Source: Candidatus Woesearchaeota archaeon
GTDB lineage: Archaea; Nanobdellota; Nanobdellia; Woesearchaeales; UBA10216
Assembly (NCBI GenBank): GCA_016211185.1
Contig: JACQST010000028.1
Coordinates: forward strand, 1 to 32,617
Reading direction: 5' to 3'
Length of the DNA: 32,617 nucleotides
Below the pieces are notes generated by a model. It saw only the letters and a list, made by a program, of their open reading frames with translations. It did no database searches and was not told where the DNA came from. Positions 1,613 through 29,922 of this stretch are shown piece by piece. Both the position numbers and the translations under genes were made by a program. Each line of letters begins with the position of its first letter. Position 1 is the first letter of the stretch.

Positions 1613-3745
1613 ATGAATACATCAAAGGGGGCGATTTGCTTGACTACAACACTTACAGACACAACCAGAACTGACTCTTTTCAGCCAGGAACATTAGAGC
1701 ATCACATTCAGGAAGTTCTCAGTGGAAGAAGGCGTTTTGAAACTGCAGCCCAGGCAGTAACAAGGATGATTATTGGCACTCCGGGCTCTGTCGAAAAAGT
1801 AACCGTATGCGGGCAAACAACGTATGACTACAAACTTTTCAGACAAGGAAAAAAGCCTGTAGTAGGTATGTATCATGAAATAAACGACCTTGTCAACTTC
1901 GTGAAAGATGCGGCGCAAGGCGGCTCTTCAAGGGAAAGGGGATTCATATTTGTAGGAGAGCCAGGCAACGGTAAGACTTTCTTCATAGAAACCCTCTGCG
2001 CTCTCTACAGGGATTTCACATCGCTCGATGGAAACAGAAGGTTCACATTCAGGTTCACAGGACTGGACGAAGCTTTAGGATACCCGCAAAAACTCGCCAG
2101 AATAGAAAGCCAGACCTATGAGGACCCAATGGTGCTTGCAATGAACCTTCACGATTCAAGAAGCGCAAACATGGAGCTAATTGCAAGCCGCGGATTTACA
2201 GACACGCAAGTAGAAACAATCTTTGACAGTTACAGAGGGTTTGGAGCATGCACCGAATACATAATCGACCGCCTCAGAGAAAGATACGATGGCGATGTGT
2301 CGAAAGTAATGCAACATATCGTGGTGGTCACAGTTCAAATAAGCGACTCTTCAGGTGTCCTTACAGGGAAATATGCCCCGAAGGACAAGATAACAGCGAC
2401 TGCAGCCGACCTTGTAGGAGCTGAAGAGACAATCCGGCTGCTCCTTGTTCCGGAGCCAGATAACCCCTATAAGCTTAACGTGAGAAAAGGCGCCCTTGCA
2501 AGAGTGGCCGGGGGAGGGGTTCACTTTGTCGATGAAATCCTCAAAAACAAGGTTGACCTGGTCAAAATCTACCTCGGCGTAACCCAAAACAGGGCCATTG
2601 AAATAGACGGCTACAAGTGGCCTTTGGACATACTTGTATTAGCCACTTCTAACAACGACGAATATGAAAGATTCAGAGCACAAAGAAGCGAAGCACCAAT
2701 AACTGACAGGTTCAGCGTCTGCTTCGTTTCTCATAACACAGACTACCGCATGCAAGGACAACTGACAGCGTATGCAATAGGTGGAGAAGTAAAAACAACA
2801 GTCATGGGCCGCAGGCTGCACCAAGACCCCAACCTCAACTATGCAGCATCAGTTGCAGCAGTCCTGACAAGACTTCCCCACGACATCCCAATTGCAAAAG
2901 ACAAAATGACCCCTGTCGAGATGCTGCAGCTTGCCGCAGGAGAGGTTGCTGGAGACAGAAACCTACAAACCCTCAGCGAGATAGTGGATGTATTAAGCAA
3001 AGAACCAGACCCTACCAAAAGGTTCGGCCAAAAAGGAATTGGCCAAAGAGGACTGGGCAAGGCCGTCCAGTATCTTATTGCAATGTCAAAGACAAACGAG
3101 GGTCACTGCATGTGGGCAGGAGATATTTTCAGAGCTTTGGAGCAAGTCGTAGTTGACACTGTAATTGAGGATGCTGACAGGGCAAAATACCTTGCAGACC
3201 TAAAGACTGCTGAAGAATTATACAAAGAAAAAGTCATGGCTGAGCTGTTCGTGGCATACATGGATGACCCTAACGCGATAAAAACGGATGTTATGAACTA
3301 TGTCAACATGGTAGTTGGGATGAGCTCTGCAACAAAAGACAAGACATGGTCATACAAGGATCCGCAGACAGGAGAGCTCAAGGCAATAAAGATAGACACC
3401 ACATACATAGATGCAGTCGAATCCCGACTCGGCTTATCAACAAAAGACCAAAAAGAATCATACAGAGGCACAATACGCAGGACACATGGACAAAAAGTAG
3501 TCACAGACCCCAATTACTTCTTCATGGACAACTTGGAGCTGGTAAAAGCCGTTACAGAAGTGACACTGCAGTCTGATGTGAATGGGGCTGGTTCCCTTAT
3601 TGGCGCACTCGCAAACAGGACAAACGAGAGAAACAGACAGCTATTCAACCGCATGGCCACAGTTATGACTGAGCAACTTGGCTACTGTGAAACATGCGCG
3701 GAGGCAACAATGGAGTATTGCATTCCCAAAGAGAAACTCAACTGA
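1613..3745 (+). CDS. prkA: PrkA-family AAA+ ATPase / serine protein kinase-like protein (PrkA-1)
   Basis: Walker A GEPGNGKT; PrkA-like block GVHFVDEILKNKVDLVKIYLGVTQ...WPLDILVLATSNNDEYERF...DRF; adjacent to YeaH and SpoVR homologues. Confidence 0.85.
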   Translation: MNTSKGAICLTTTLTDTTRTDSFQPGTLEHHIQEVLSGRRRFETAAQAVTRMIIGTPGSVEKVTVCGQTTYDYKLFRQGKKPVVGMYHEINDLVNFVKDAAQGGSSRERGFIFVGEPGNGKTFFIETLCALYRDFTSLDGNRRFTFRFTGLDEALGYPQKLARIESQTYEDPMVLAMNLHDSRSANMELIASRGFTDTQVETIFDSYRGFGACTEYIIDRLRERYDGDVSKVMQHIVVVTVQISDSSGVLTGKYAPKDKITATAADLVGAEETIRLLLVPEPDNPYKLNVRKGALARVAGGGVHFVDEILKNKVDLVKIYLGVTQNRAIEIDGYKWPLDILVLATSNNDEYERFRAQRSEAPITDRFSVCFVSHNTDYRMQGQLTAYAIGGEVKTTVMGRRLHQDPNLNYAASVAAVLTRLPHDIPIAKDKMTPVEMLQLAAGEVAGDRNLQTLSEIVDVLSKEPDPTKRFGQKGIGQRGLGKAVQYLIAMSKTNEGHCMWAGDIFRALEQVVVDTVIEDADRAKYLADLKTAEELYKEKVMAELFVAYMDDPNAIKTDVMNYVNMVVGMSSATKDKTWSYKDPQTGELKAIKIDTTYIDAVESRLGLSTKDQKESYRGTIRRTHGQKVVTDPNYFFMDNLELVKAVTEVTLQSDVNGAGSLIGALANRTNERNRQLFNRMATVMTEQLGYCETCAEATMEYCIPKEKLN

Positions 3746-3762
3746 GCTTGGCCTTACCAATC

Positions 3763-4983
3763 ATGAATTACTCAACATTAGTTCCCCAAACACCCCATTC
3801 TTACTTTGCAGCCTCAACCCTTGACGAACTCCTCCAAAGGGACGCGCAACGAAAAAACGATGGGTTCTTTCCACGAATAAACGTTACCAAGGTGTTGGCG
3901 CCAGGAACAGGGTTTGATATAGTGCTCATACCAACAACAGTTGAAGAAAAGTTCTACCACGACACAAGACCACTACACCCAATGTCCGGACAGGAACAAA
4001 CAGGTTCTGGCGAAGGAGAAGAAGGCGAAATGATAGGATACGAGCCTGCTGAAGGCGAAAGTGGCCAAGGTAGCGGAAAAAAGGAAGGCTCGCAAGCAGG
4101 AGCAGGCGAAGGGGAACATGGGCTGGGAAACGACCCATATGAGATTGGGAAAGTAATTACAAAAAAACTCAGGCTCCCAAACCTAAGGCATAAAGGGAAA
4201 CAGTTCCTCGCAGACAGACAATTCGAACTAACTGATAGGAACAGGGGCTCAGGACAGCTTGTTGACCAAAGAAGAACCCTCGATAATTTAATAAGAACAA
4301 ACATGCTTCTGGGAATAATACCTCCGGACACGACTGACTTCACTACGATACCCTTTGACAACTTGCTGGTAAGCCCCAATGATATAGAATACAGGATACT
4401 GTCAGTAGAGCCTACGTACGAGTCACGGGCACTCGTGTTTTTTGCAAGAGACTACTCTGCCAGCATGCAAGGCTTGCCTGCAGAGCAAGTAGTGAAGCAG
4501 CAGATATTGATATACTCGTGGCTCGTCTATCAATACCAAAGAAAGGTCGAAACCAGATTTTTCTTGCACTCCGAAGTGTCAAAAGAAGTACCTGACTTCC
4601 GCACATATTTCCGACTCTTAACAGAAGGAGGAACAAGGATAGAAAGCGTCTTCAGCCACATAAACGCTGTCGTGGAGGCAGAGAACCTTGCACGGGACTA
4701 CAACATATACATCTTTTACGGAGGAGACGGCGATGATTTGGGAGAAGCATTCTCTAAAAGAGCGGTTGAGGAAATTGAGAAAGCTCTCTCATACGTCAAC
4801 AGGCTCGGAATAACAATTGTAAACGATCAAGAGCGTTCTTTTTCAGCAGTACTCTCACAATCAGGAATCCTGGCCAAAAAGCCAAACCTCATAAGATACG
4901 ACTTAATCTCGAAAGACGCTGACCAGGACAGGCTTATCAAAGGAATAAACAAACTTGTTTCCGAAATAGGTGTCAAAAAGTGA
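3763..4983 (+). CDS. yeaH: YeaH/DUF444 family protein with VWA-like domain
   Basis: Start set at ATG 3763, after the prkA stop. MIDAS-like DYSAS motif in ALVFFARDYSASMQ, Gly/Glu-rich acidic linker, gene order between prkA and spoVR. Confidence 0.85.
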   Translation: MNYSTLVPQTPHSYFAASTLDELLQRDAQRKNDGFFPRINVTKVLAPGTGFDIVLIPTTVEEKFYHDTRPLHPMSGQEQTGSGEGEEGEMIGYEPAEGESGQGSGKKEGSQAGAGEGEHGLGNDPYEIGKVITKKLRLPNLRHKGKQFLADRQFELTDRNRGSGQLVDQRRTLDNLIRTNMLLGIIPPDTTDFTTIPFDNLLVSPNDIEYRILSVEPTYESRALVFFARDYSASMQGLPAEQVVKQQILIYSWLVYQYQRKVETRFFLHSEVSKEVPDFRTYFRLLTEGGTRIESVFSHINAVVEAENLARDYNIYIFYGGDGDDLGEAFSKRAVEEIEKALSYVNRLGITIVNDQERSFSAVLSQSGILAKKPNLIRYDLISKDADQDRLIKGINKLVSEIGVKK

Positions 4984-6674
4984 ATATAATAGACCAGCAC
5001 GCAAAGAAGCTAATGGAGAGATGCAAAGACAGGGCAAGAGAATCAGGGCTGAGATTCAGCGACGAAACCCTCGAAATAATACTTAAAAATGAGGAAATTG
5101 TAAGACTGGAGGCAAAAGGCTTCATTCCAACAATGTATGATTACTGGGTTGACGAAGTCCGAACGCTGCAGGGAATAGGGGCGTATGAAATATTCCCCAG
5201 AAGGACATATGGCATGTTCGAAATAGTTACAAACGCCAGGCCACCAATCTCATACTACAACGTAAATAACCCGGACTGGCTAAACGTCATGATATTCTAC
5301 CATGTGCTTGCACACATAGACTTCTTCCAGAACAACGCCATGTTCAGGAACACATGGAGAGACGATTTTGCTGGGCAGGCACTGGCTGACAAGCGAACGA
5401 TAGCAAAATTGCGAAGAGAACATGGAAGATGGCTGGAATACACGATAGAGTTCGCAAGGGCAATAGACAACCTTGTCGGGTTCCATGCAGAACTTGCCAA
5501 AAGCATGGACAGAACTCCAGAGCCACTTCCAAAAGCAGGGTTCTATTTTGACGTGTTCATACAAGGCAAAGACTTGCCGCAAAGCGAATTCTTTAGAGAA
5601 ATGGAGCTTTACAACCGGTTCGTATCAGAAGATTCTGAGCAAGGCGAACAGAGATTCTTTGCTTTAAAACAGGCAAAATACCCTGAACTCGGTGCGCTAT
5701 ACGAAAGATACAGGAAAGAATGGAAGCAGTCGCCTTCAGATGCTATAGAATTCATAATGCAAAACTCACCATTCCTAAACAAAGCAGAAAATGAATGGAT
5801 GAAACAGGTCATAGAGATTGTAAGAAGAACATCACTGTACTTCCAACCCCAGATAAAGACAAAGATAATGAACGAAGGATGGGCAAGCTACTGGCATGAG
5901 CAGCTGTTCATGCAGAACGAAAGGATAAGCGGCCACGAAGTACAGTTCGCAGTAAACAATGCCCAAATAACCGCGCTGAACCGATTAGGGCTGAACCCCT
6001 ATGCAGTGGGACTCAGGCTGTTCCAATACATCGAGGAGCAGGCAGACCAGGGAAGGCTGTCACACGAGTTCAAAAGATTAAGGGACATAACAGCAAGGGA
6101 TAAATATGACCAGAACACAGGCAATGGGAAACAGTCCGTATTCGATGTGCGGGAACAAATGGATGACTTCCTGTTCATACACTTGTTCCTTGACCAGGAC
6201 TTCGTCGACAGGCACAAGCTATTTGTCTCGGAAAGGAGATTCAACCCCATAGCTAAGAGGTGGGAATACTATGTCAAGAGCAGAAAAGCTGAAGACTACA
6301 AGCGAATGGTTACAGCTACCCTGTACCATCCTCCGAGTGTCACTGCGGAAGATTCCAACGGAACGCTAAGCCTTCACCACCACTTTGAAGGACAAAGGCT
6401 CGTGCCTGAATACATACAAAGCACAATGGTGGGCATAGCGCACCTCTGGGGAGGAACAGTAACCTTAAGGACATACGAACCAACAGTGACCACACAGCCA
6501 TCTGTGGAGATGGCTATTGTGGCTGGCGCTCCCCGCGTTGTTCGCGTTGAGAATCCACAGGCCACATGGCAGGCAGTCAGGTATACTGCAAACGACAAAA
6601 AAGTCACAAAAGAGGCCTTGACAGGCGAACGGGAACTTGCCGAAGTTGCGGCATGGTTTTCGGAGAAAAGGTAA
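4980..6674 (+). CDS. spoVR: SpoVR family protein
   Basis: SpoVR-like YDYWVDEVRTLQGIGAYEIFPRRTYGMFEIVTNARPP...VMIFYHVLAHIDFFQNN; GTG start overlaps the yeaH stop (GTGA). Confidence 0.88.
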   Translation: MNIIDQHAKKLMERCKDRARESGLRFSDETLEIILKNEEIVRLEAKGFIPTMYDYWVDEVRTLQGIGAYEIFPRRTYGMFEIVTNARPPISYYNVNNPDWLNVMIFYHVLAHIDFFQNNAMFRNTWRDDFAGQALADKRTIAKLRREHGRWLEYTIEFARAIDNLVGFHAELAKSMDRTPEPLPKAGFYFDVFIQGKDLPQSEFFREMELYNRFVSEDSEQGEQRFFALKQAKYPELGALYERYRKEWKQSPSDAIEFIMQNSPFLNKAENEWMKQVIEIVRRTSLYFQPQIKTKIMNEGWASYWHEQLFMQNERISGHEVQFAVNNAQITALNRLGLNPYAVGLRLFQYIEEQADQGRLSHEFKRLRDITARDKYDQNTGNGKQSVFDVREQMDDFLFIHLFLDQDFVDRHKLFVSERRFNPIAKRWEYYVKSRKAEDYKRMVTATLYHPPSVTAEDSNGTLSLHHHFEGQRLVPEYIQSTMVGIAHLWGGTVTLRTYEPTVTTQPSVEMAIVAGAPRVVRVENPQATWQAVRYTANDKKVTKEALTGERELAEVAAWFSEKR

Positions 6675-8903
6675 ATGGCAGCAAAACCTTTGCAGCAGCT
6701 GTATGCAGCCCTTGATGGGAAAAGCAGAAGAAGCCTCATCCCGTTTTCACAGACACTCGAAACCGCTGCACAAAACCCCGAGCCTTTCTTCAGGGATGTT
6801 TTCCAGCTGTTCTACGACATGGTCCACCACTATGTCCCTCAAGGAATAAACGAATACCCCGACGACCCTGAAAACGCAGGATACGTGAATTACGATTTCA
6901 CCCGGCTGCTTGTTGAAGGCGCTGACACTCCCTTTTTTGCAGACAGGCTGTTTGCGAACAGATTCATGGCTTTTGTCGACTCCCTAAGCCATCAAAGGAA
7001 AAAAGTCCACTTGTGGGTAGGGCCTCCGGGAAGCGGAAAAAGCACCTTTCTTGATAACCTGCTCGCCAAATTTGAACACTACACGCGCACTCCTGAAGGA
7101 ACAATGTATGAAACCGCATGGCGCATTGACCTGCAAAAACTCGGCCTTGAAGAGCTTGCTGCAGAATCCTGCGAAAAAAACGATCCTCGCGTTCCTAAAC
7201 TAAAAGACTACCTTGTTGTACCCTGCCCAAACCACGACCACCCCATAGTCCATATACCGAAGCAGCACAGGGGGGAATTCCTGGAAGGGCTCCTTGAAGA
7301 CAGCGACTTCAAAGCACAACTTTTCAGTAAACGTGAATACGAATGGGTGTTCAACTCAGTTGCCTGCACAATCTGCTCATCAGTGTACCAGGCCCTCATC
7401 GACAACGGAAAAATCGAAGGGCCTGAAGCGGTGTTAGATATGCTTTTCGCCAGAAGATACAACTTTAGCAGGGCATTGGGCGAGGGAATAAGCGTCTACA
7501 ACCCGGGAGACAAAACAGACGAGGCGCCACAGGAAAACAAAGTCCTCCAGGCATACCTCAACGGCGTCTTCAGGGATGGAAGTGTCCTTTATCTTTTCTC
7601 GGAGCTGGCCCGCACAAACAACGGCATATTTGTAGTTGCAGACGTCAAAGGCAACAATGTGGACCGGCTTAAAAGCCTGCACGGAATAATAAGCGACGGG
7701 GTACACAGGGTAGCCCACATTGAAGAACGCACAAAATCAATCTTCCTCGCGCTCATAAACCCCTCAGACATGAACGGCGCACTTAACGACACCGCCCTCC
7801 GCGACAGGATAATACAAAGAAACGTTCCCTATGTACTTGACTACACTACAGAGATACAGATTTATGCCCACTTTTTTGGAGAAGGAATAAATGCATCATT
7901 CCTCCCCAGAGTGCTGGACAACTTTGCAAAAGTCGTGATATCATCCAGACTCAAATCAAGGTCCCCGAACCTTGCAGAATGGATAAAAAACCCTTCGCAA
8001 TATGCCAAATACTGCGATGACATGCTCACGCTCCTAAAAATGGATGTATACTCAGGCCGCATCCCGACATGGCTGAGCGATGGCGACAGAAAAGCTTTTA
8101 CAGCAGAAAGAAGGAGACAGGTTATAGGAGAAGCAGAGGATGAAGGTAGTTCAGGATTCTCTGGCAGAGAAGCAATCGCACTCTTTAACGATTTTTACAC
8201 AAGGTTCTCACGAAAAGACAGGCTAATAACAATAGACCACATCGTGCAATTCTTCACCCAAAAAAACGGAAACCTCTCAGAAAGACTTCCTGCAAGATTC
8301 CTCGACGCACTTGTCCGCTCATACAATTATTCAATCCTAAAGGAAGTTGAATCCTCCTTGTATAACGACAACCCTGAGAAGATATCAAAAGACATCCTGA
8401 ACTACATCTGGGCAACCAACCATTTGCCCGGAAGCAGGACAGTCTGCCCATTTACAAACGAAGCGATGGAGATTACAGAAGACTACTTCAAAACAATGTT
8501 TGTCAACATTCTGGGCTCAGAAGCTCCAAAAGATCAGGCAGGTCTAACCAAGAAAGCCCACGAACTAAAAGAAGAAACCCAGCAGCAATACCTGGTTGCG
8601 ATGTCTCAAGAAGTAGACGGCCAGAGGCCATTGACACAGACAGAGATGTACAAGTCTCTTTATGAACAGTACGAGAGAAGCCTAAGGGCAAACGTTCTTA
8701 GCCCGTTTGTCAACAGCGAAAGCTTCAGAAGAGCAATAAAGGACTACGGGATGCCTGCATTTGTAGGCGTGGAACCGAGAACACAGCAGGATGTCAGATT
8801 CATGATGGGCAACCTGCAGTCGCGCTTTGGATACACAGAAAAAGGAGCGCGTGAAATCTGCCTATACGTGATAGAAAAGAATCTGGTTGAGGCATTCAAA
8901 TAG
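6675..8903 (+). CDS. prkA: PrkA-family AAA+ ATPase / serine protein kinase-like protein (PrkA-2), divergent from PrkA-1
   Basis: Walker A GPPGSGKSTFLDNLL; CPNHDHP...CTIC cysteine motif; ATG directly follows the spoVR stop. Confidence 0.85.
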   Translation: MAAKPLQQLYAALDGKSRRSLIPFSQTLETAAQNPEPFFRDVFQLFYDMVHHYVPQGINEYPDDPENAGYVNYDFTRLLVEGADTPFFADRLFANRFMAFVDSLSHQRKKVHLWVGPPGSGKSTFLDNLLAKFEHYTRTPEGTMYETAWRIDLQKLGLEELAAESCEKNDPRVPKLKDYLVVPCPNHDHPIVHIPKQHRGEFLEGLLEDSDFKAQLFSKREYEWVFNSVACTICSSVYQALIDNGKIEGPEAVLDMLFARRYNFSRALGEGISVYNPGDKTDEAPQENKVLQAYLNGVFRDGSVLYLFSELARTNNGIFVVADVKGNNVDRLKSLHGIISDGVHRVAHIEERTKSIFLALINPSDMNGALNDTALRDRIIQRNVPYVLDYTTEIQIYAHFFGEGINASFLPRVLDNFAKVVISSRLKSRSPNLAEWIKNPSQYAKYCDDMLTLLKMDVYSGRIPTWLSDGDRKAFTAERRRQVIGEAEDEGSSGFSGREAIALFNDFYTRFSRKDRLITIDHIVQFFTQKNGNLSERLPARFLDALVRSYNYSILKEVESSLYNDNPEKISKDILNYIWATNHLPGSRTVCPFTNEAMEITEDYFKTMFVNILGSEAPKDQAGLTKKAHELKEETQQQYLVAMSQEVDGQRPLTQTEMYKSLYEQYERSLRANVLSPFVNSESFRRAIKDYGMPAFVGVEPRTQQDVRFMMGNLQSRFGYTEKGAREICLYVIEKNLVEAFK

Positions 8904-20350: not shown

Positions 20351-20518
20351 CTAATAGTTTGACTTCTTCTTCTGGTAGCAGTCCCTGCAATAGACAGGCC
20401 TGCCCTCTACCGGCTTAAAAGGCACTTGGGTGTCAGTACCACAGTCAGAGCACTTTGCTGGGTGCATCTCCCTTTGCTGAAAGCCTCCACCACCATTGCC
20501 TCGGTTACCAAATCTCAT
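20351..20518 (-). CDS. Small CxxC...CxxC zinc-ribbon protein
   Basis: Start set at internal Met (20518): MRFGNRGNGGGGFQQREMHPAKCSDCGTDTQVPFKPVEGRPVYCRDCYQKKKSNY; the ORF track over-extends upstream. Confidence 0.85.
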   Translation of the reverse strand: MRFGNRGNGGGGFQQREMHPAKCSDCGTDTQVPFKPVEGRPVYCRDCYQKKKSNY

Positions 20519-20637
20519 TCTACTTTCCTCCAAAAAAACTTTTTCGCCCAAGCACTCAAATGCAAGAGCCATTTGCTTCATAAGAAAAAGCAAACCTCTT
20601 CTTACAAAACAAACAAAAGCAGAATAAGCCAGCACTA

Positions 20638-20665
20638 TATAAACTTTGCTATACAAAGTTTTATA
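20638..20665. promoter_or_regulatory. Near-palindromic divergent TATA element TATAAACTTTG-ctata-CAAAGTTTTATA
   Basis: Inverted repeat with one extra T in the right arm; both arms end in TATA-like boxes; the right arm lies about 25 nt upstream of ATG 20690. Confidence 0.55.
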
Positions 20666-20689
20666 TGCGATACCCAAGCAAAGACTTTC

Positions 20690-21256
20690 ATGCTGATAAC
20701 ACCAGGGTATGAAGCTGAAAGGGGCAGGATATGGCTGTGCCAAGGCACAGTACGATATAGGAGCGGGCTTAGCATACCTAACAGCCCCTTCATGATACAG
20801 CGCTTCAAGCCATACTCTGCAAGCGAATTCATGTTTGCGGCAAGCCACTCGCCAGAACTCAGGGAATACACAATAGAACAGATGCAACTGGAACTTAGAG
20901 CTCAAGGAGAGCGGGAAGTGGGCTATTGTGCTGTCCAGCCTGACAGAAACATGAGGAAACAAATACGCTTCTACACGCCGTTCCAAGCACCTGACGAAAT
21001 AACAGACCTTTTTGCCGAGGCGCGACGAATAATCCGACATCATACAGGACTTATCAGGGAAGGAAAAAAGTACGAAAGCTCTGAAATCAAGGCGCTGGAG
21101 GCAAGAAAACTTGCGTTCTCAAGGTTATGTGAGCAGACACTTGAAGGCATAGTCCGCCAAAACTTGCCTGCGGAGATGACAGGTCATACATCAGCTACCG
21201 ATATAGTTATCGCATACATGCCTAACACACAACAATTAGCGCGGGCACTAAACTAG
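20690..21256 (+). CDS. Hypothetical protein of unknown function
   Basis: ATG at 20690 sits correctly downstream of the TATA arm: MLITPGYEAERGRIWLCQGTVRYRSG...; no family recognised. Confidence 0.65.
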   Translation: MLITPGYEAERGRIWLCQGTVRYRSGLSIPNSPFMIQRFKPYSASEFMFAASHSPELREYTIEQMQLELRAQGEREVGYCAVQPDRNMRKQIRFYTPFQAPDEITDLFAEARRIIRHHTGLIREGKKYESSEIKALEARKLAFSRLCEQTLEGIVRQNLPAEMTGHTSATDIVIAYMPNTQQLARALN

Positions 21257-21302
21257 CATTCTGAACGAAACATTTATACCTTTAGGGCCAAAAACAAGCC
21301 AA

Positions 21303-21590
21303 ATGGCAACCAAGGAAGAAGTAATATCTGCGCTGAAAACCTGCTACGACCCTGAGCTGCAGATAGATGTATGGACGCTTGGGCTAATATACGAGATAAA
21401 CCTGCCTTCTGATGACAAGGCAGAGATAAAGATGACGCTCACAACCCCGTTCTGCCCATACGGGCCGGCACTGCTTGAAGACATCGAGAACGCAGTAAAG
21501 AACGCCTGTGATGTAGATGTTGATATCGAGCTCGTCTTTGACCCGCCATGGCAGCCATCAGAAGAGCTGAGGGCAATGCTTGGGCTTTGA
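21303..21590 (+). CDS. MIP18/DUF59 (SufT-like) iron-sulfur assembly-associated protein
   Basis: ALKTCYDPELQIDVWTLGLIYEINL, MTLTTPFCPYGPALLEDIENAV, FDPPWQPSEELRAMLGL; TATA-like ATTTATACC upstream. Confidence 0.92.
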   Translation: MATKEEVISALKTCYDPELQIDVWTLGLIYEINLPSDDKAEIKMTLTTPFCPYGPALLEDIENAVKNACDVDVDIELVFDPPWQPSEELRAMLGL

Positions 21591-21689
21591 CAGCTTGCCG
21601 GAAAAGTTTATTCTTACAAATATATTCTGCACATTAGAAAAGCTTAAATATTTGTTACATGCTTATTAATGGCAAATTTTAAAAAAACA

Positions 21690-21838
21690 GAAATCGTTGG
21701 CTTGGCTAGTTGAACAAAAAGCTTGATTAAAACCGTTTTTGTTGGCGCTTAAACGGTTTTAAACATCGTTTGGCTTTAAATCGTTGTTAATCGTTGTTTG
21801 TTGGCTTAATTTAATTGGCTTTACTTAATTGGCTTTTT
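21690..21838. repeat. Repeat-rich intergenic leader: five exact TTGGCTT copies, ATCGTTG-type words and a 12-bp inverted repeat
   Basis: TTGGCTT recurs through the region; TTAAAACCGTTT (21727-21738) is the exact reverse complement of AAACGGTTTTAA (21751-21762). Confidence 0.6.
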
Positions 21839-21865
21839 CTGAGCAGGAATAAGAGTAAACTCCTA

Positions 21866-21887
21866 TTTAAACATTTGTGTGTTTAAA
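21866..21887. promoter_or_regulatory. Inverted repeat TTTAAACA-tttgtg-TGTTTAAA upstream of ftsZ
   Basis: Perfect 8-bp inverted repeat containing TATA-like TATTTAAA, 60 nt upstream of the ftsZ ATG. Confidence 0.45.
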
Positions 21888-21946
21888 AGGATGTTTGCCA
21901 GAATATACTTTCAAAAAAGGGGAGACTGAACCGGGGGTCGTGAAAA

Positions 21947-23017
21947 ATGGATTTTATTGTGGAAGATGCATTAAAGGCTGCTGAAGAGCAAAAATACGGT
22001 GGGCTCATAGGCCAGGCAAACATAAAGGTAATAGGCGTAGGAGGCGGAGGAAACAACATGGTTTCCTGGCTCCACAGGAAGGGCATAAAAGGGGCTGAAA
22101 TCATAGCCTGCAACACAGACAAGCAGCACATCGACATATCTTCTGCTGACAAAAAATTCCTGATAGGAAAAGAACTGACAAGAGGCCTTGGCTGCGGCGG
22201 ATTCCCTGAAAGAGGAGCTGAAGCAGCAAAGGAAACAATGCAGGAGATAAAAGACTCCCTAAAAGGTTCAGACATGGTCTTCGTATGCGCAGGCCTCGGA
22301 GGAGGAACAGGAACAGGAGCAGCACCTGTAGTAGCAAAGGTCGCGAAAGAATCTGGAGGAATAGTCATAGGAACAGTAACGATGCCCTTCAAGATAGAGA
22401 GGGCAAGGATAGACAAGGCAGAGTTCGGCCTAAGCCAGCTCAGGCAGGTATCAGACACAGTAATAGTAATAGACAACAACCGCCTGGTCCAGATAGCTGG
22501 AAACCTGCCAATAGAACAGGCATTCGCAGTTGCAAACGAGCTCGTTGCAACAATGATAAAAGGCATAGTTGAGACAATAGCAGTCCCATCCCTGGTAAAC
22601 CTTGACTACGCTGACGTGAAGGCAATCATGACGAATGGAGGCGTTGCAGCCATAGGAGTCGGAAGCTCAGACACCAACAACAGGGTAGAGGAGGCAGTTC
22701 AGGGAGCGCTAAGCAACCCATTGCTCGACATAAACTACAAAGGCGCAACAGGAGCACTCATACACGTATCAGGCGGCCCTGACATGACACTGGATGAAAT
22801 CAACAGGATAGGCGAGCTCGTGACAGAAAGCCTTGATGACGACGCAAACGTAATCTGGGGAGCCAGAGTGAGCGAGAATATGAAGGGCAAAGTAACAGTG
22901 ATGACCATAATCACCGGAGTCAAGAGCCCATGGATACTGGGCAAGCTCGACAAAAAACAGCAGACAGCAAGAAGAACAGAGGTCGAGGACGAACTTGGCA
23001 TAGAGGTGATAAACTAA
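21947..23017 (+). CDS. ftsZ: Cell division GTPase FtsZ
   Basis: IGVGGGGNNMV, ACNTD, GLGGGTGTGAAPVVA tubulin/FtsZ signature, NPLLD, VIWGARV. Confidence 0.97.
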   Translation: MDFIVEDALKAAEEQKYGGLIGQANIKVIGVGGGGNNMVSWLHRKGIKGAEIIACNTDKQHIDISSADKKFLIGKELTRGLGCGGFPERGAEAAKETMQEIKDSLKGSDMVFVCAGLGGGTGTGAAPVVAKVAKESGGIVIGTVTMPFKIERARIDKAEFGLSQLRQVSDTVIVIDNNRLVQIAGNLPIEQAFAVANELVATMIKGIVETIAVPSLVNLDYADVKAIMTNGGVAAIGVGSSDTNNRVEEAVQGALSNPLLDINYKGATGALIHVSGGPDMTLDEINRIGELVTESLDDDANVIWGARVSENMKGKVTVMTIITGVKSPWILGKLDKKQQTARRTEVEDELGIEVIN

Positions 23018-23047
23018 ATCCCAATCACCTTAGGGTGTGTTGAATTC

Positions 23048-23088
23048 TTGCCTTCATTTTACCACCCCCAACAAAATAATGAAGGCAA
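23048..23088. repeat. Hairpin TTGCCTTCATT...AATGAAGGCAA
   Basis: 11-bp perfect inverted repeat between convergent ftsZ and the RIO-type kinase. Confidence 0.5.
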
Positions 23089-23100
23089 AAAGTCAACTGG

Positions 23101-23147
23101 TCTCCAATGCATCCTTCAAACGGATGCATTTGGAGATTCTTTTTTTT
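23101..23147 (+). terminator. Intrinsic-terminator-like hairpin plus T-run downstream of ftsZ
   Basis: TCTCCAATGCATCC-ttcaaac-GGATGCATTTGGAGA (14-15 bp stem, one bulge) followed by TTCTTTTTTTT. Confidence 0.65.
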
Positions 23148-23886
23148 ACCTACTGCCTGTTCTGACGCCCCTTTTCCCTTTAGTAATCTGGCCAAAAACC
23201 CTCTCAACAGAGGCATCAACACCCAGCTTCCTGAAGAAATCAACAACGTTCACAACATCACGCTTAAGCAGTTCACCAGAAGAAGCAGCCTTTACAGGCA
23301 TTGCCTGCGAAAAATCAATAAGGACCGGAGACCCGTTATGGTTAAGGATATTGAACTTTGACAGGTCCCCATGCACAAACCCTGCCCTGTAATACCTGCG
23401 CATATGCTCAGTGACCTTTATGAAGAACTCCTCAGGGTCATTGGGAAAGGCATCCTTCACCTTGGGAGCTACATCATTGTTGCCTATGAACTCCATCACA
23501 AGTATATTCTTCAGGAAAGCAACAGGCAGAGGAGCCCTCACACCTGCCTCACGGGCAACCATAAGATTCCTGAACTCCCGCTGAACCCACGCAAAGATAA
23601 TCTCCCTGCGCCTCTTCTTGAGGCCGGAAAACCTCGGGTCCCCGCTGATATAGGAATACATCCTGTTAAAGTCGCTTGTCTCCAGCCTGTGAATCTTAAC
23701 GATAAGCTTCTGCTTGTCACTCACCCTGGACTCAACAGAAAAAACATTGCTCTCCTTCCCGATGCTGACAGGGCTCAAGGACTCAGGGTCAAAATACTTC
23801 CCCAGCTTGAAGATGTTCTGCAGCGTAAAGCGGTCAAACACAGCCTCATAAGTCTTGAATTTCTCAGGAACAGCCTTCCGCGCCAT
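23146..23886 (-). CDS. RIO-type (Rio1-like) atypical serine kinase
   Basis: GKESNVFSV, MYSYISGDPRFSGLKKRRREIIFAWVQREFRNLMVAREAGVRAPLPVAFLKNILVMEFIG, FVHGDLSKFNILNHNGSPVLIDFSQAM. Start set at internal Met. Confidence 0.9.
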   Translation of the reverse strand: MARKAVPEKFKTYEAVFDRFTLQNIFKLGKYFDPESLSPVSIGKESNVFSVESRVSDKQKLIVKIHRLETSDFNRMYSYISGDPRFSGLKKRRREIIFAWVQREFRNLMVAREAGVRAPLPVAFLKNILVMEFIGNNDVAPKVKDAFPNDPEEFFIKVTEHMRRYYRAGFVHGDLSKFNILNHNGSPVLIDFSQAMPVKAASSGELLKRDVVNVVDFFRKLGVDASVERVFGQITKGKRGVRTGSR

Positions 23887-23912
23887 CGAGCAAAGCAACC
23901 AAGGGCACTATA

Positions 23913-23942
23913 TTAAGGTATTGAGGGTTAAGGTATTGAGGG
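23913..23942. repeat. Two exact 15-bp tandem copies TTAAGGTATTGAGGG
   Basis: Adjacent identical 15-mers spanning the stop codon of the 23928 gene. Confidence 0.9.
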
Positions 23943-24815
23943 CTTTCCCTCTGTCTCAGCAAGCCATTTAAGAAACGCTCTATGATGATCCTCGCGGACC
24001 TGGGAAAAGCCCAAAGGACTCGGGTCGCCAAGCGAAAGCAGCTTTGCTGAAACGTAAACGCTTTCATCAAGACCTGACATCTTGTACGCAGACACGGCAA
24101 AAGCCTCTGCACGCTCCCTGTCTTTTTCATCAAGGACAGCGCTCCTCTCAACTATAACATCCAAGCCATGGGCAATACCAAGAAGGCACATGGCATAATC
24201 AGGAGCTATATGCCAAAACTTCTTCAACTTAACTGACTCGCCATCTACTTCAGCAACATCATTCATAATCGAGGACTCAACAGCAGCCAAATAGTTCTCA
24301 ATGCCGCTTAGACTGTCATAATCCACACTTCGCCTTCCATCAACAAATACAGGAACACGCCTTGTGGCACGTATCATTTCCTTGGAAACCTCAGTGTTAA
24401 GGCCGTTACCAAGATAAAGAATTTCAGGTCTCGGGCCGGACTGGTATTCGGTTCTGCCAGGATTGACAAACAAAAGCACAGCACTTATTAAACCGGAATG
24501 AAAAGGCTTGAGCATACGTGTTTTTTCAAGAGTGCCTGTTTCGAACTTGGCTAAAAAATCATTATAGCTTGCCCGCGCAACATTCCGAAGTTCCAAGCCC
24601 TCAAGTGAAGCAGCAGTTGCAGAAGAGAGGTTATACTCATCCTTAGGCAGCATACCTGCCAGACCCAAAACGTCATCACGCGAGCCAGTGTACGATGACA
24701 GGTTTCTCTCAATGCTGAGAGCGTTGTGCTCCCTGGAAACATCGCCAGCCAACAAATTGCGGATTATCTCGTCCCTACCCAGCCTGAAAACCATCCTCAA
24801 TGCAGACTCAACCAT
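23928..24815 (-). CDS. Protein of unknown function, paralog B of a tandem pair
   Basis: Start set at internal Met (24815), overlapping the upstream stop by 8 bp; shares LKPFHSGLISAVLLFV and RPEILYLGN...VSKEM-type blocks with the upstream neighbour. Confidence 0.75.
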   Translation of the reverse strand: MVESALRMVFRLGRDEIIRNLLAGDVSREHNALSIERNLSSYTGSRDDVLGLAGMLPKDEYNLSSATAASLEGLELRNVARASYNDFLAKFETGTLEKTRMLKPFHSGLISAVLLFVNPGRTEYQSGPRPEILYLGNGLNTEVSKEMIRATRRVPVFVDGRRSVDYDSLSGIENYLAAVESSIMNDVAEVDGESVKLKKFWHIAPDYAMCLLGIAHGLDVIVERSAVLDEKDRERAEAFAVSAYKMSGLDESVYVSAKLLSLGDPSPLGFSQVREDHHRAFLKWLAETEGKPSIP

Positions 24816-25662
24816 GACAATCACTCCTTCCCGGTAACCTTTCAGCCAAAGTGCCTGCCACGGTTCTTCTGACATCAATCAGGCTAGTTACATAAGGCGC
24901 ACTTGAAAACCCTGAGGCCTCATATGCCTGCACAGCCAATGAGTTGAAGCCCAAAGCAGACTTGGTTAGTTGGTTTTTCAAAGCATCCGGCTCTTCTGAA
25001 GTAGCATACACTGCTGCCCGCCCAATTATTATATCAGCGATATTCACTCTACCATAATCTAACCTCCTGTTTGGAAGGTCGGATTCAGCAACCCTTTGGT
25101 GAACGTCAGCAATACTTCCCGCAGCAATCGCATATCCCACCAGATTAAGAGCAAGGGATTCAGCAATCCTTCTATTCCACATATCTGCTTCATCCTCACT
25201 CATATCATCTGGCTTGTCATTAAACAAGTATCGCCCACCTTGCAATTCTGCCTGTATGCTGGTAAATACATCCCTGACGAGTTTTGTTGACACGTCATAC
25301 GGGTTTCTTTGTATATCTCGCAGGTTCCTATCCTTAACTTCTTTAGTGACGTGGCTCCCTCCATACAAGACAGGAACAAATCTAGGCCTCCAACTTACAG
25401 GTATTGCATTTGGGTCTTGAATTATGAATAAAGCAACTATAGATAAGGCGCCGTGGTTAAAAGGCCGTAGAGGCTCTCGCTCGAAGCCGTAACCTTCCCT
25501 GCGGATTTCCCCTTCCTGCGCATCAGCCAAGTTCGTCATCGAAAGGTGTTCTAGATATCTTTTAACTTCAGTTACAGTTCGCTTATCCATCAAGTCGCTG
25601 AAATGAGGTTGCAACTGAGCTACTACTTTCCCCAACACTCTTTCCTCGTGTAATGAATCCAT
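24808..25662 (-). CDS. Protein of unknown function, paralog A of a tandem pair
   Basis: Start set at MDSLHEERVLGK (25662) because a TATA-like ATTTATAAAG lies about 20-25 nt upstream, inside the longer ORF; block similarity to the 23928-24815 product. Confidence 0.75.
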   Translation of the reverse strand: MDSLHEERVLGKVVAQLQPHFSDLMDKRTVTEVKRYLEHLSMTNLADAQEGEIRREGYGFEREPLRPFNHGALSIVALFIIQDPNAIPVSWRPRFVPVLYGGSHVTKEVKDRNLRDIQRNPYDVSTKLVRDVFTSIQAELQGGRYLFNDKPDDMSEDEADMWNRRIAESLALNLVGYAIAAGSIADVHQRVAESDLPNRRLDYGRVNIADIIIGRAAVYATSEEPDALKNQLTKSALGFNSLAVQAYEASGFSSAPYVTSLIDVRRTVAGTLAERLPGRSDCHG

Positions 25663-25769
25663 GAATAGCAAGATAAGCAGCCGCTTTATAAATCTTTCTA
25701 TTTTTACCACTTAACAGTAAATAACGTTTAGGGTTATACAAAGCTTTTTATATCTCCTATTGTTACTCT

Positions 25770-25935
25770 GGCTTATCGCGTCAATAGCCAAATGGGTCCT
25801 TCCAGAGCAGACCTCAAAGGCCGGCCATGAAGGCAAGACACTCTTGGCTATAACAGCCCGTCACGAGAGAACCCTAAAGAGCTAATGACAAAAGTCAAGC
25901 TATGATCCGGGGAGTTAGTGTCACGGGCAACATCC
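25770..25935 (+). ncRNA. Candidate structured non-coding RNA, family unknown
   Basis: No long ORF; TATA-like CTTTTTATAT at about 25744-25753; helices ATAGCCAA/TTGGCTAT (25784-25791 with 25844-25851), GGGTC/GACCT, GCCCGT/ACGGGC (25856-25861 with 25923-25928), and nested AGCT-aat-GAC-aaaa-GTC-a-AGCT. Confidence 0.45.
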
Positions 25936-26110
25936 AAATCATCATTATCAATCAAGCAAAAGGACAAGTAAAGTGCTTTTCACTTTAACATCATTGAAGG
26001 AAAAGAGTATTAAGCGTAATGAAGGCAGCCTGGATTAATCATCCGGCTTCAACTTAATACAGCGCTTGTTCTAATGCTATTGGAAAAACACAGCAACAAG
26101 GTGATACAAA

Positions 26111-27409
26111 ATGGGAAAGATAAGTCCTGTATCGGCAAAATACATCATACACTCTACAATAACAATAGAGGGCGTAGTCGACAGGCCAGATGTCATAGGT
26201 GCAATATTCGGCCAGACAGAAGGCCTGCTTGGAGCTGACCTCGAACTAAGGGAACTCCAAAGGTCAGGAAGGATAGGCAGGATAGAGGTAAACACCGAAA
26301 CGAGAAACGGCAAGACTGCAGGGACAATAATAATACCGTCCTCACTTGACAAGGCAGAAACCTCCATAATAGGAGCAGCCCTTGAAATAATACAGAGGAT
26401 AGGGCCATGCAACGCAAAGATAAAGGTAGACAGCATAGAAGACGTAAGAGTAACCAAGAGGGCATTCATACTGGAAAGGGCAAAAGAGCTCCTGAAACAG
26501 CTCATGGATGACGTCATGCCTGACTCCCAGGAAATAGCCGAAGAAGTAATAAACTCTGTCAGGGCGTCAGAAATAAGGGAATACGGCAAGGACAAGCTGC
26601 CGGCAGGCCCCATGATAGATGAATCAGAGGAAGTGGTCATAGTTGAGGGAAGGGCAGATGTCCTCAACTTGCTGAAGCAAGGCATAAAGAACGGGGTGGC
26701 AATGAACGGCACATCAGTCCCCCAAACCATAATAGAGCTGTCAAGAAAAAAAGTGGTCACGGCATTTGTTGACGGCGACAGAGGAGGAGACCTGATAATA
26801 AAGGAGCTCCTCGAAGTGGCAGACATAGACTACGTCACAAAAGCCCCTGACGGGAAGGAAGTCGAGGAAATAACCAAGAAGGAGATACACAAGGCCCTAA
26901 GAAGCAGGATATCCGCAGAGCAGGCAAAGTTCGAAATATCACCAAGAGGCGAGTCCCGCGAACAAAGGGAAACAAGGGAACAAAGGGCAAGGGAACAAAG
27001 GGAACAGCGCCCTGAAAGATACTTTGAAAAAGACAGCACCCCGCCAATGCCGCAAAGGCGACCTGCTCCACAACCCCCAATCCCGCTGCCTCAGGCAAGG
27101 AAAGACCAGAACCCTTCAATATCGCAAAACGAGAGAAGGACATTCAGGGAGATGTCAGAAGACCTCATAGGCACCAGAGGGGCATACATACTTGACGAGA
27201 CGCTGAACATACTTGGAAAAGTCCCCATAACAGAACTGCAGGGAACCATAAAGGAGCTCAACTCAGCCTATGCAATAGTGTTTGACGGCTCAATAGACAG
27301 GGAACTGGTAAAGGCAGCAGAGACCGCAAACGTCAAATACCTCGTGGCAATGGACGCAAAACAGAAACCAGACACAAGGATAAACCTGCTCACTATAAAC
27401 GAGCTCTAA
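26111..27409 (+). CDS. dnaG: Archaeal DnaG primase-like protein (TOPRIM domain)
   Basis: KISPVSAKYIIHSTITIEGVVDRPDVIGAIFGQTEGLLGADLELRELQRSGRIGRIEV and VVIVEGRADVLNLLKQGIKN...VVTAFVDGDRGGDLI. Confidence 0.96.
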   Translation: MGKISPVSAKYIIHSTITIEGVVDRPDVIGAIFGQTEGLLGADLELRELQRSGRIGRIEVNTETRNGKTAGTIIIPSSLDKAETSIIGAALEIIQRIGPCNAKIKVDSIEDVRVTKRAFILERAKELLKQLMDDVMPDSQEIAEEVINSVRASEIREYGKDKLPAGPMIDESEEVVIVEGRADVLNLLKQGIKNGVAMNGTSVPQTIIELSRKKVVTAFVDGDRGGDLIIKELLEVADIDYVTKAPDGKEVEEITKKEIHKALRSRISAEQAKFEISPRGESREQRETREQRAREQREQRPERYFEKDSTPPMPQRRPAPQPPIPLPQARKDQNPSISQNERRTFREMSEDLIGTRGAYILDETLNILGKVPITELQGTIKELNSAYAIVFDGSIDRELVKAAETANVKYLVAMDAKQKPDTRINLLTINEL

Positions 27410-27474
27410 AACCAACCAAGGGTCCCAACCAACAACCAAGAAAACTTTAAATAAGCTCGAGAAGAAATAAGGCC

Positions 27475-28743
27475 ATGCAAAGGAGCCTCAGAGCAGTCTC
27501 GCACATAGACTGGGTAATGAGCCTCGGCATATTCATGATGTTCCTCGCATGGTTCTTCATATTCATAAAGCCGCTGGCAACTCCGTCCACAAACATGGAA
27601 CCCATACTGAGAGTTGCTTCAGAAAAAATCACTGCAAACACCACATGGGCAGTCGAAACAATCCCCCTAATCATATTCTCGAATATAACAGGCACTGAAG
27701 AGCCACTGATAGTTGACTTCCCATTCGCATGGAACCAGACAAACTTCGCATTCTCGGACAACACCAGCTTCCTGCTTGACGAAGGAAAAATACTATTCAT
27801 GGCAAACATCACGCCCAGAAAAACGCTAATACTTGTACACACAGACCAAAACTACACGCACACACCTCCATACAACTCAGACCTCACAGCCACAAGCGAC
27901 GCAGCCACAGTGAGGGACATGAGAGCCGAGTTCAAGGGCGGCATGATAAAAACGCTGACATACAGGGAGCGCTACCTGATGCAGGTCTTCAACATAACAA
28001 TCAACACCCTGCAGGTCGAGGGCCAGAACACATCGGAATCCATAAACCCTCTCGCTGCAAAATACAAGATGCAAAGCACCCTGATAAACCATACATCCTA
28101 CGTGTTCCCGGCCAAAACAAGGATATACAACCTGATACGGCTTAACAACCCCCTCACAACACCACAGAACTTCTCCCTCCGCACCACAATCTCTAACGTC
28201 ACAGACTACTACTCAGTTCAGGCAAGCGGCGCAATAGACTACAACGGCACATGCACAGACATAATGACAAACTACATCGACCTGCACGACAGCCTCGCAG
28301 GAATATCATTCATCTTCAAGGACAGGCAAAACATAAGCCTGTGCGCAACAAACTCAACACTCAGGATGTCAGCATACTTCACTCTCACAAACGACACATC
28401 CTACGAGATAATGCTTCATGAAGGAGACTACAACGCAACCACGCCTTACATAAGCCCCTATTCTGAAACCTTCGGCGCAACAGAGCTCCAGCAAGGCGTC
28501 TCGTACAAGCTGCTCGCAGAGCTGAACAGGACAAACTACACAGACCTGAAAGCAGCCTGGAAATACCCGGCATCCAGGGAACTGGCATTCACAATACTAA
28601 ATGAGACAGGAGGAGAGATTTACTCATACCAGCCAGTGAACCCAACTGAAACACAGAACATATTCGCAAAGGAAACAGACACCACAGCAATAGACCAGTA
28701 CGGCAAACGGAAAAAAGTAACGATAAGGGTAAGAGCATGGTAA
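27475..28743 (+). CDS. Membrane-anchored surface protein with very dense N-glycosylation sequons
   Basis: Single N-terminal transmembrane helix (WVMSLGIFMMFLAWFFIFI) followed by an extracytoplasmic-looking domain with about 19 N-X-S/T sequons; TATA-like CTTTAAATAAG upstream. Confidence 0.8.
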   Translation: MQRSLRAVSHIDWVMSLGIFMMFLAWFFIFIKPLATPSTNMEPILRVASEKITANTTWAVETIPLIIFSNITGTEEPLIVDFPFAWNQTNFAFSDNTSFLLDEGKILFMANITPRKTLILVHTDQNYTHTPPYNSDLTATSDAATVRDMRAEFKGGMIKTLTYRERYLMQVFNITINTLQVEGQNTSESINPLAAKYKMQSTLINHTSYVFPAKTRIYNLIRLNNPLTTPQNFSLRTTISNVTDYYSVQASGAIDYNGTCTDIMTNYIDLHDSLAGISFIFKDRQNISLCATNSTLRMSAYFTLTNDTSYEIMLHEGDYNATTPYISPYSETFGATELQQGVSYKLLAELNRTNYTDLKAAWKYPASRELAFTILNETGGEIYSYQPVNPTETQNIFAKETDTTAIDQYGKRKKVTIRVRAW

Positions 28744-29117
28744 AGGGGAAAAAGGCATTCCTGAGAACCCTCGAGGCAGCAATAGCCATCATAGTAGCAC
28801 TCACAATAATACTTGCATTCATCCCGCAGTTCAATACAGCCAGAGAACGCATCAGGAGCCAAAACGCCCTCGAGCCCCTTACAAAGGACGAGCAATTCAG
28901 AACCTGCGTGCTCACGGAAAACATCACATGCATCAACACAACCCTCTCCACACCCCTCCAAAACTTCCACTACACAATAAACATCTCAAAAAACCCCCAC
29001 ACAGAAATAAGCGGCCTGCCCACAAAACAAATCCTCTCGGAATCAGCCTACATAGCAGGAAACACAACAACATACTCCCCACGGATAATAAGAATATTCT
29101 ACTGGGCAAGGAACTAA
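28737..29117 (+). CDS. Small pilin-like membrane protein
   Basis: N-terminus MVKGKKAFLRTLEAAIAIIVALTIILAFI resembles a pilin-like positively charged leader plus hydrophobic helix; overlaps the upstream gene by 7 nt; 4 sequons. Confidence 0.7.
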   Translation: MVKGKKAFLRTLEAAIAIIVALTIILAFIPQFNTARERIRSQNALEPLTKDEQFRTCVLTENITCINTTLSTPLQNFHYTINISKNPHTEISGLPTKQILSESAYIAGNTTTYSPRIIRIFYWARN

Positions 29118-29169
29118 AACAAGAAAACCACAATAATCTTTAAATAAAACAACGCAACAAAGACACCCC

Positions 29170-29442
29170 ATGAAGATAACAATAGACACAGAAAAAGACA
29201 GCAAAGAAGAGATACAAGCAGCAATACAGCTGCTCAGAAAAACAATAGGGGACGAACTGCAAAGAGAGGAACCCAGGCATGAACCTCTCAGGACACCTGA
29301 AACAAGCTCAGCAGAGGAACTAATTAAAAAGATAACCTCAGGCAAGCTTGCCAGAAGCCCGCCCTCTGGTGAAGAAATAAAGGGAGTCCCGAAGTCAATA
29401 AGGGAAGCCTACGACCTTTCCGAAAAGTTCGATACTTATTGA
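29170..29442 (+). CDS. Small charged hypothetical protein
   Basis: 90 aa ORF with upstream TATA-like CTTTAAATAAA; ends 6 nt before archease. Confidence 0.65.
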   Translation: MKITIDTEKDSKEEIQAAIQLLRKTIGDELQREEPRHEPLRTPETSSAEELIKKITSGKLARSPPSGEEIKGVPKSIREAYDLSEKFDTY

Positions 29443-29448
29443 AAGGAA

Positions 29449-29877
29449 ATGAAAAATTACGAGTTTCTTGAGCACACAGCAGACGCAAAGTTCAGGGCAT
29501 ATGGCAAAAGCATCGAAGAAGCATTCGCGAACGCAGCCACAGCAATGACCAGCATAATGTTCGAAACAGACACAATAAAGCAGAAAACAAACAAGGCAAT
29601 ACAGGCAACAGGCACAGACCTCAAATCACTTCTTGTAAACTTCCTAAGCGAAATCGTATACCTGCTTGACGCGGAAAGATTCATACCCTCAAGGGTAACC
29701 AGCCTGACTATAAACAAGTCATCAGAAGGATACACACTTGCCGCAATAGCAAAAGGGGACTTCTACTCAGACGAATACGAACACATAGGAGATGTGAAAG
29801 CAGTGACATACGCAGAAATGGAGATAAAGGAAGAAACAAATGGAAAATGCTACGTCCAAGTTGTCGTGGACATATGA
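29449..29877 (+). CDS. Archease (RtcB activation protein)
   Basis: YEFLEHTADAKFRAYGKSIEEAFANAATAM, LLVNFLSEIVYLLDAE, VKAVTYAEMEIKE; immediately upstream of rtcB. Confidence 0.95.
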   Translation: MKNYEFLEHTADAKFRAYGKSIEEAFANAATAMTSIMFETDTIKQKTNKAIQATGTDLKSLLVNFLSEIVYLLDAERFIPSRVTSLTINKSSEGYTLAAIAKGDFYSDEYEHIGDVKAVTYAEMEIKEETNGKCYVQVVVDI

Positions 29878-29922
29878 CCATACGGCACAACTTTTTTATA
29901 TCCCTCCAAAACCAGTGGCAGA

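Follow-up and report, generated by a model that had tools for sequence, protein, structure and literature searches.

The four-gene operon prkA1-yeaH-spoVR-prkA2 fills positions 1613-8903 of the DNA analyzed here (the window: 32,617 nucleotides of contig JACQST010000028.1 from a Candidatus Woesearchaeota archaeon) and represents a paired-PrkA form of the PrkA(YeaG)-YeaH(YhbH)-SpoVR(YcgB) module, complete in itself. The gene set and its order recur from genome to genome, the two PrkA proteins separated anciently, they occur together almost obligately, and they differ asymmetrically in their active-site residues and cysteine motifs. PrkA, YeaH, and SpoVR occur widely as stress proteins, and it is disputed whether their enzymology is that of a kinase, a protease, or neither. 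Here PrkA is naturally split between two ATPases whose divergence is complementary; this points to the features that are likely to be functional, and it shows that the two-PrkA system, until now a curiosity of haloarchaea, is shared by many bacterial phyla and DPANN archaea. The haloarchaeal pairing of PrkA with DUF444 and SpoVR is already known; new here are the bracketed bacterial type, the Glu/Asp split, and the cysteine asymmetry, for which no description was found in the open-access literature (subscription papers lay outside the search).

Above the Pfam cut-offs, both PrkAs match the PrkA C-terminal and AAA_PrkA families, YeaH matches DUF444, and the third gene matches SpoVR, so that PrkA, DUF444, and SpoVR genes lie together in the window; both PrkAs also have a Walker A motif and an acidic Walker B motif (a full Asp-Glu in PrkA-1, Asp only in PrkA-2). 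However, with scores of 47 and 23 bits the two PrkAs fall far below the equivalog cut-off of NCBIfam PRK15455 (576 bits), and by this measure they are divergent subfamilies rather than YeaG equivalogs. YeaH narrowly passes the NCBIfam subfamily model NF003712. A search of the whole genome revealed no third PrkA gene. Because the family scores are accompanied by a gene order that is kept in 53 loci, a chance arrangement is excluded.

In a phylogenetic tree each of the two PrkAs makes up a single clade across phyla, with 100/100 support. Comparison of sequence profiles gives E 1.6e-8 for PrkA-1 against PrkA-2, but E ~1e-39 and ~1e-37 for the two against single PrkA. Since each of them matches single PrkA far better than it matches the other, they are not recent duplicates, and their separation, as read from tree and profiles, is ancient. 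The presence of two members of one family in one operon might suggest that the second prkA arose by recent duplication, or is a dosage copy with no new role; given the deep, fully supported clades and the motif differences fixed across phyla, this explanation is hardly credible and was rejected. An initial annotation, made from the sequence alone, had described the two PrkAs as clearly divergent and as bracketing YeaH and SpoVR, and had named recent lineage-specific duplication as the result that would overturn it. The description stands, and the phylogeny and profile matches agree in giving the opposite of recent duplication.

The active-site and cysteine motifs were compared in 54 PrkA-1 and 85 PrkA-2 sequences of type A (the type to which the window operon belongs) and in six single PrkAs. 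All 54 PrkA-1 and all 85 PrkA-2 sequences have Walker A, and both proteins likewise keep an Asp-Arg segment. Walker B reads G-[IV]-H-F-x-D-E in 54/54 PrkA-1 sequences. The corresponding PrkA-2 pattern, matched by 83/85, always ends in a lone Asp (typically GIYALMD; GIFVVAD in the window), and by alignment the two sequences that miss the pattern (L063 and L092) have Asp as well. Two independent alignments match this residue to the Glu that is catalytic in single PrkA, and Glu is found at Walker B in all single PrkAs examined. The cysteine motifs are also divided between the partners. A CPxHD...CTIC insert is present in 82 of the 85 PrkA-2 sequences, none of which has a C-terminal CxxC, and that CxxC is present in 53 of the 54 PrkA-1 sequences, none of which has CxxH. 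Most of the six single PrkAs carry both cysteine motifs; in E. coli YeaG the pattern finds neither.

A scan of genome contigs for PrkA-2 yielded 269 relatives, the best 80 of which were examined. Since a broad PrkA-2 alignment had too few conserved stretches, a narrower one was used, and these 80 loci are consequently biased towards type A. Most come from Desulfobacterota; Desulfuromonadales/Geobacter, Aminicenantes, Fibrobacterota, Krumholzibacteriota, Gemmatimonadota, Acidobacteriota, and Lentisphaerota are also represented, and only two are archaeal, both from Woesearchaeota. Of the complete loci, 53 preserve the order prkA1-yeaH-spoVR-prkA2; another 26 are cut by contig ends and are consistent with it. 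The cultured Desulfacinum hydrothermale (L081) shares this gene order. The exceptions are four loci, L027, L029, L040, and L048. L029 is counted among them, rather than as a contig-end case, because its prkA1 lies ~25 kb away on a complete chromosome. There is no fifth conserved gene, the commonest neighboring family adjoining only 7/83 loci. In one genome (L046) the four-gene operon is present in two complete tandem copies ~280 bp apart.

The two halves of the pair also travel together at the level of the genome. A further PrkA gene with the score signature of PrkA-1 is present in 47/50 genomes that have PrkA-2, among them some, such as Desulfonema magnum, in which the two genes are not close together, and only one of the 50 (G549) has an ordinary-looking PrkA besides PrkA-2. 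Among 148 sampled Desulfobacterota genomes, with PrkA classes assigned from scores, seven have the pair (one being the centre genome), ten have ordinary PrkA only, and one has a divergent pair; single halves do not occur among them, nor does the pair together with ordinary PrkA. The main exception to pairing is L040, a lone PrkA-2 in a record titled chromosome: no PrkA-1 was found in its genome, and the fetched locus contains neither YeaH nor SpoVR. Pairwise distances of the four operon proteins correlate at 0.87-0.91 (52 loci), a correlation that, calculated without a species-tree control, shows co-transmission and not interaction. At the level of sequence, both the pairing of PrkA-1 with PrkA-2 and their motif asymmetry are established. 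The synteny and co-occurrence bear out strongly the co-inheritance that the initial annotation expected; its label of an archaeal operon is not supported, as the operon is mainly bacterial and, within the archaeal phylum of the window, patchy (PrkA-2-like matches in 8/371 genomes).

Paired PrkAs are not confined to type A. Type B operons (L021 and L024) have the bracketed order, as does a very divergent prkA-yeaH-spoVR-prkA operon in a Desulfobacterota genome (L122, 2031-9645), and two DPANN genomes (L123 and L124) have adjacent, divergent genes in the order prkA-prkA-yeaH-spoVR, which is the order reported for haloarchaea. All contain two PrkAs, YeaH, and SpoVR, as in the window, but protein identity to the window operon is very low, and in L123 and L124 the prkA genes adjoin rather than flank. 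In all of these four other divergent paired operons, the alignment puts Glu in one PrkA and Asp in its partner at the Walker B position, a post hoc pattern, noticed after the sequences had been viewed; for L123_E1 and L124_F1 the alignment of Walker B is less certain, given their long branches and ~24% identity. The data are compatible with a single Asp-type clade (p-AU 0.14 by the approximately unbiased test), so that Asp-type PrkA may go back either to one ancient duplication or to two origins. Tentatively, and with the odds somewhat against it, paired PrkA could be a recurrent design in bacteria and archaea, an obligate Glu-type/Asp-type asymmetric AAA+ motor that remodels SpoVR, an unrecognized metal-binding protein, via a VWA adaptor; such a design may descend from one ancient duplication.

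In YeaH the MIDAS-like residues of the VWA domain (DxSxS...T...D) are nearly invariant; the first motif reads DYSxS in type A and DVSxS in single-PrkA modules. In SpoVR the stretches HVxxHxDFFxNN and NEGWA..WH are nearly invariant, and in a structural model (predicted local distance difference test, pLDDT, 77) each lies on a predicted helix. Judged from this conservation, a metal site in SpoVR is a reasonable guess. A gluzincin-like peptidase fold, suggested by HVxxH...EGWA, was considered and rejected: the PDB gave no fold match, and none of 26 members matched a Pfam peptidase family. What is left of the idea is a possible metal site, without the catalytic Glu of HExxH. SpoVR-like coding regions are also found in uncultured phage genomes of ~600 kb (LR745206.1, LR756502.1, and LR756511.1), and in the Ralstonia jumbo phage RsoM2USA SpoVR (ORF28) and PrkA (ORF30) are two open reading frames (ORFs) apart (PMC8504454).

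How might two unequal PrkAs work with YeaH and SpoVR? On sequence and analogy, we give roughly an even chance to an unequal two-subunit AAA+ motor that works through the VWA protein YeaH on SpoVR, which is likely to bind metal. PrkA-1, with Walker A, the Asp-Glu of Walker B, a sensor Asn, and Arg, would be the main ATP-hydrolyzing subunit. PrkA-2, in which Walker A is intact, Glu is replaced by Asp, and the cysteine insert is kept, would hydrolyze slowly and might serve as an ATP-holding, regulatory, or docking subunit. The two would assemble as a mixed ring or as stacked rings, YeaH would couple the motor to SpoVR through its MIDAS-like VWA domain, and SpoVR, with its nearly invariant HVxxH...NEGWAxxWH and a putative bound metal, would be the protein that is remodeled or activated in starvation or stress.

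Machines that join an AAA+ ATPase to a MIDAS-bearing VWA protein include BchI-BchD magnesium chelatase, NorQ-NorD, CbbQ-CbbO, and RavA-ViaA. In BchI/BchD one ATPase subunit is strong and the other is weak or inactive, and the joint assembly of BchI and BchD is the model for the mixed or stacked rings proposed for PrkA-1 and PrkA-2. However, the AAA+ families differ, and BchD fuses a weak AAA+ domain to a VWA domain, whereas in the window these are separate genes. A model of PrkA-2 (pLDDT 85.7) matches many AAA+ domains weakly (E above 0.005), including those of BchI and NorQ, both of which work with VWA proteins. The analogy is drawn from BchI/BchD, NorQ/NorD, and similar systems, together with these weak fold matches.

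Several points weigh against such a motor. The structural matches of PrkA-2 to BchI and NorQ are weak, the SpoVR model finds no fold match in the PDB, some hydrolysis can persist when Asp replaces the catalytic Glu, and in 3/50 genomes PrkA-2 is present without a detected PrkA-1. In addition, purified Bacillus anthracis PrkA was monomeric in one condition, and neither protease nor kinase activity could be detected (PMC13001217), and because of this the molecular activity of the whole PrkA family is uncertain. Under the same heading belongs the possibility, doubtful but to be taken seriously, that PrkA-1 and PrkA-2 form separate homo-oligomers, which act sequentially or on different substrates or signals and share YeaH and SpoVR. 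The two proteins are very distant in sequence, both retain Walker A and the Asp-Arg segment, B. anthracis PrkA oligomerizes by itself with ATP (PMC13001217), and the ~25 kb between prkA1 and prkA2 in Desulfonema magnum means that co-translation is not required. Near-strict co-occurrence, the rarity of lone halves, and complementary motif loss nevertheless fit a shared assembly better, and the asymmetric motif changes make a physical PrkA-1/PrkA-2 hetero-oligomer more plausible.

Alternatively, as the family name and older reports suggest, PrkA-1 and PrkA-2 could be serine/threonine kinases, each with its own targets. In E. coli YeaG, the C-terminal-domain residue K426 is indeed needed in vivo (PMC4664914). 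However, kinase activity was not detectable in purified B. anthracis PrkA, whose kinase-like domain has no P-loop (PMC13001217), and the strong constraint observed here falls on the AAA+ motifs; a pair of kinases is accordingly improbable.

In 2011, paired PrkA with DUF444 and SpoVR was reported in all haloarchaea, always together (PMC3102087), which confirms the mention of haloarchaeal prkA pairs in the initial annotation. That cluster resembles the window operon in having two PrkA genes, one DUF444 gene, and one SpoVR gene in an archaeon, but, compared by reported gene content and order alone, its prkA genes are adjacent, whereas those of the window flank yeaH-spoVR. Searches of plasmids for haloarchaeal PrkA copies returned only a remnant. 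The same three protein families make up prkA/yhbH/spoVR of Bacillus and yeaG-yeaH plus ycgB of E. coli, and prkA-yhbH-spoVR of Thermomicrobium roseum (L107) has the prkA-yeaH-spoVR order of the window. Single-PrkA modules differ from the window in having one PrkA, with Glu at Walker B and, in most, both cysteine motifs, and a YeaH with DVSxS. Stress roles are known for these single-PrkA relatives only: deletions of E. coli yeaG and yeaH have the same phenotype, with a role in nitrogen starvation (PMC4664914), and B. anthracis PrkA has a role in sporulation and osmotic stress (PMC13001217). PDB entries 9xip, 9xiq, and 9xir are of a single-type PrkA relative; no paper on them was found.

Within the archaeal phylum of the window, the type A pair is present in G000, G003, G133, and G341, and partially in G033. 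In a concatenated tree of the four genes, archaeal and Lentisphaerota copies split from those of other bacteria (100/99); the data are compatible with a single archaeal clade (p-AU 0.15). The operon of the archaea probably goes back to horizontal transfer, in one direction or the other. Because the gene after the operon in G003, a member of the same GTDB family, is the diphthine-synthase-like methylase gene that also comes after it in the window, a single arrival in the common ancestor of the two genomes is likely. The genome of the window (~1 Mb in 84 contigs, 90.65% complete) is an assembly in which a mis-binned bacterial contig might be suspected, as most relatives of the operon are bacterial. 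However, the window also encodes the methylase, archease, RIO kinase, and a eukaryote-type glycogen synthase, and the operon stands beside that methylase gene in G003, while in G133, on a 107 kb contig, its neighbors look archaeal; a contaminant contig is thus extremely improbable and was rejected.

Coordinates of the four genes and their motifs are collected below.

Table 1. Genes and motifs of the paired-PrkA operon, in window coordinates.
Feature	Position	Strand	Basis
prkA1, Glu-type PrkA AAA+ ATPase, 710 amino acids	1613..3745	+	ORF; Pfam PF06798 and PF08298 above cut-off
PrkA-1 Walker A, GEPGNGKT	1955..1978	+	Direct reading; identical motif in other type-A PrkA-1
PrkA-1 Walker B, GVHFVDE, catalytic Asp-Glu	2516..2536	+	Motif pattern, alignment, direct reading
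PrkA-1 C-terminal CxxC (YCETC)	3683..3697	+	Motif pattern, direct reading
yeaH (DUF444/YhbH family), VWA protein	3763..4983	+	ORF, Pfam, NCBIfam, homologue alignment
YeaH MIDAS-like DYSAS	4450..4464	+	Conservation, direct reading
spoVR (YcgB family), 564 amino acids, GTG start overlapping yeaH stop	4980..6674	+	ORF, Pfam, direct reading
SpoVR HVLAHIDFFQNN, candidate metal-binding helix	5301..5336	+	Conservation, direct reading; metal binding putative
SpoVR NEGWASYWH, candidate metal-binding helix	5871..5897	+	Conservation, direct reading; metal binding putative
prkA2, Asp-type PrkA AAA+ protein, 742 amino acids	6675..8903	+	ORF, Pfam
PrkA-2 Walker A, GPPGSGKS	7020..7043	+	Motif pattern, direct reading
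PrkA-2 cysteine insert, CPNHD...CTIC (zinc-like)	7224..7376	+	Motif pattern, direct reading; zinc binding putative
PrkA-2 Walker B, GIFVVAD, Asp at catalytic Glu position	7623..7643	+	Motif pattern, alignment, direct reading

The ORF list places all four genes on the same strand, and direct reading confirms the tight packing noted in the initial annotation, with a GTGA overlap of yeaH and spoVR at 4980-4983 and a zero-gap TAA-ATG junction of spoVR and prkA2 at 6672-6677. The longest yeaH ORF runs from an ATG at 3694 (3694-4983); since homologues align from about ATG 3763, 17 nt after prkA1, this is probably the true start. The genes on either side lie on the opposite strand and leave the cluster isolated. 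PADLOC gave no defense-system match, and a scan for sigma-70 promoters did no better than shuffled sequence, as expected for an archaeon. Upstream of prkA1, at 1524-1545, GCGAAAAATTTAAATG resembles, by eye only, an archaeal promoter with a B recognition element (BRE) and TATA box.

Beyond the operon, positions 20351-32617 hold ordinary archaeal genes (FtsZ, RIO kinase, a Toprim protein, archease, and an iron-sulfur (FeS) assembly protein), together with several long ORFs that have no Pfam match, for example 23928-24878 (-), 24808-25710 (-), and 27475-28743 (+). Between 11507 and 19976 lies a glycogen-type cluster, in a DPANN genome of ~1 Mb, that encodes GH15, an amylo-alpha-1,6-glucosidase (GDE_C), a GalT-like protein, the eukaryote-type glycogen synthase (PF05693), a GT4 transferase, and GH57.

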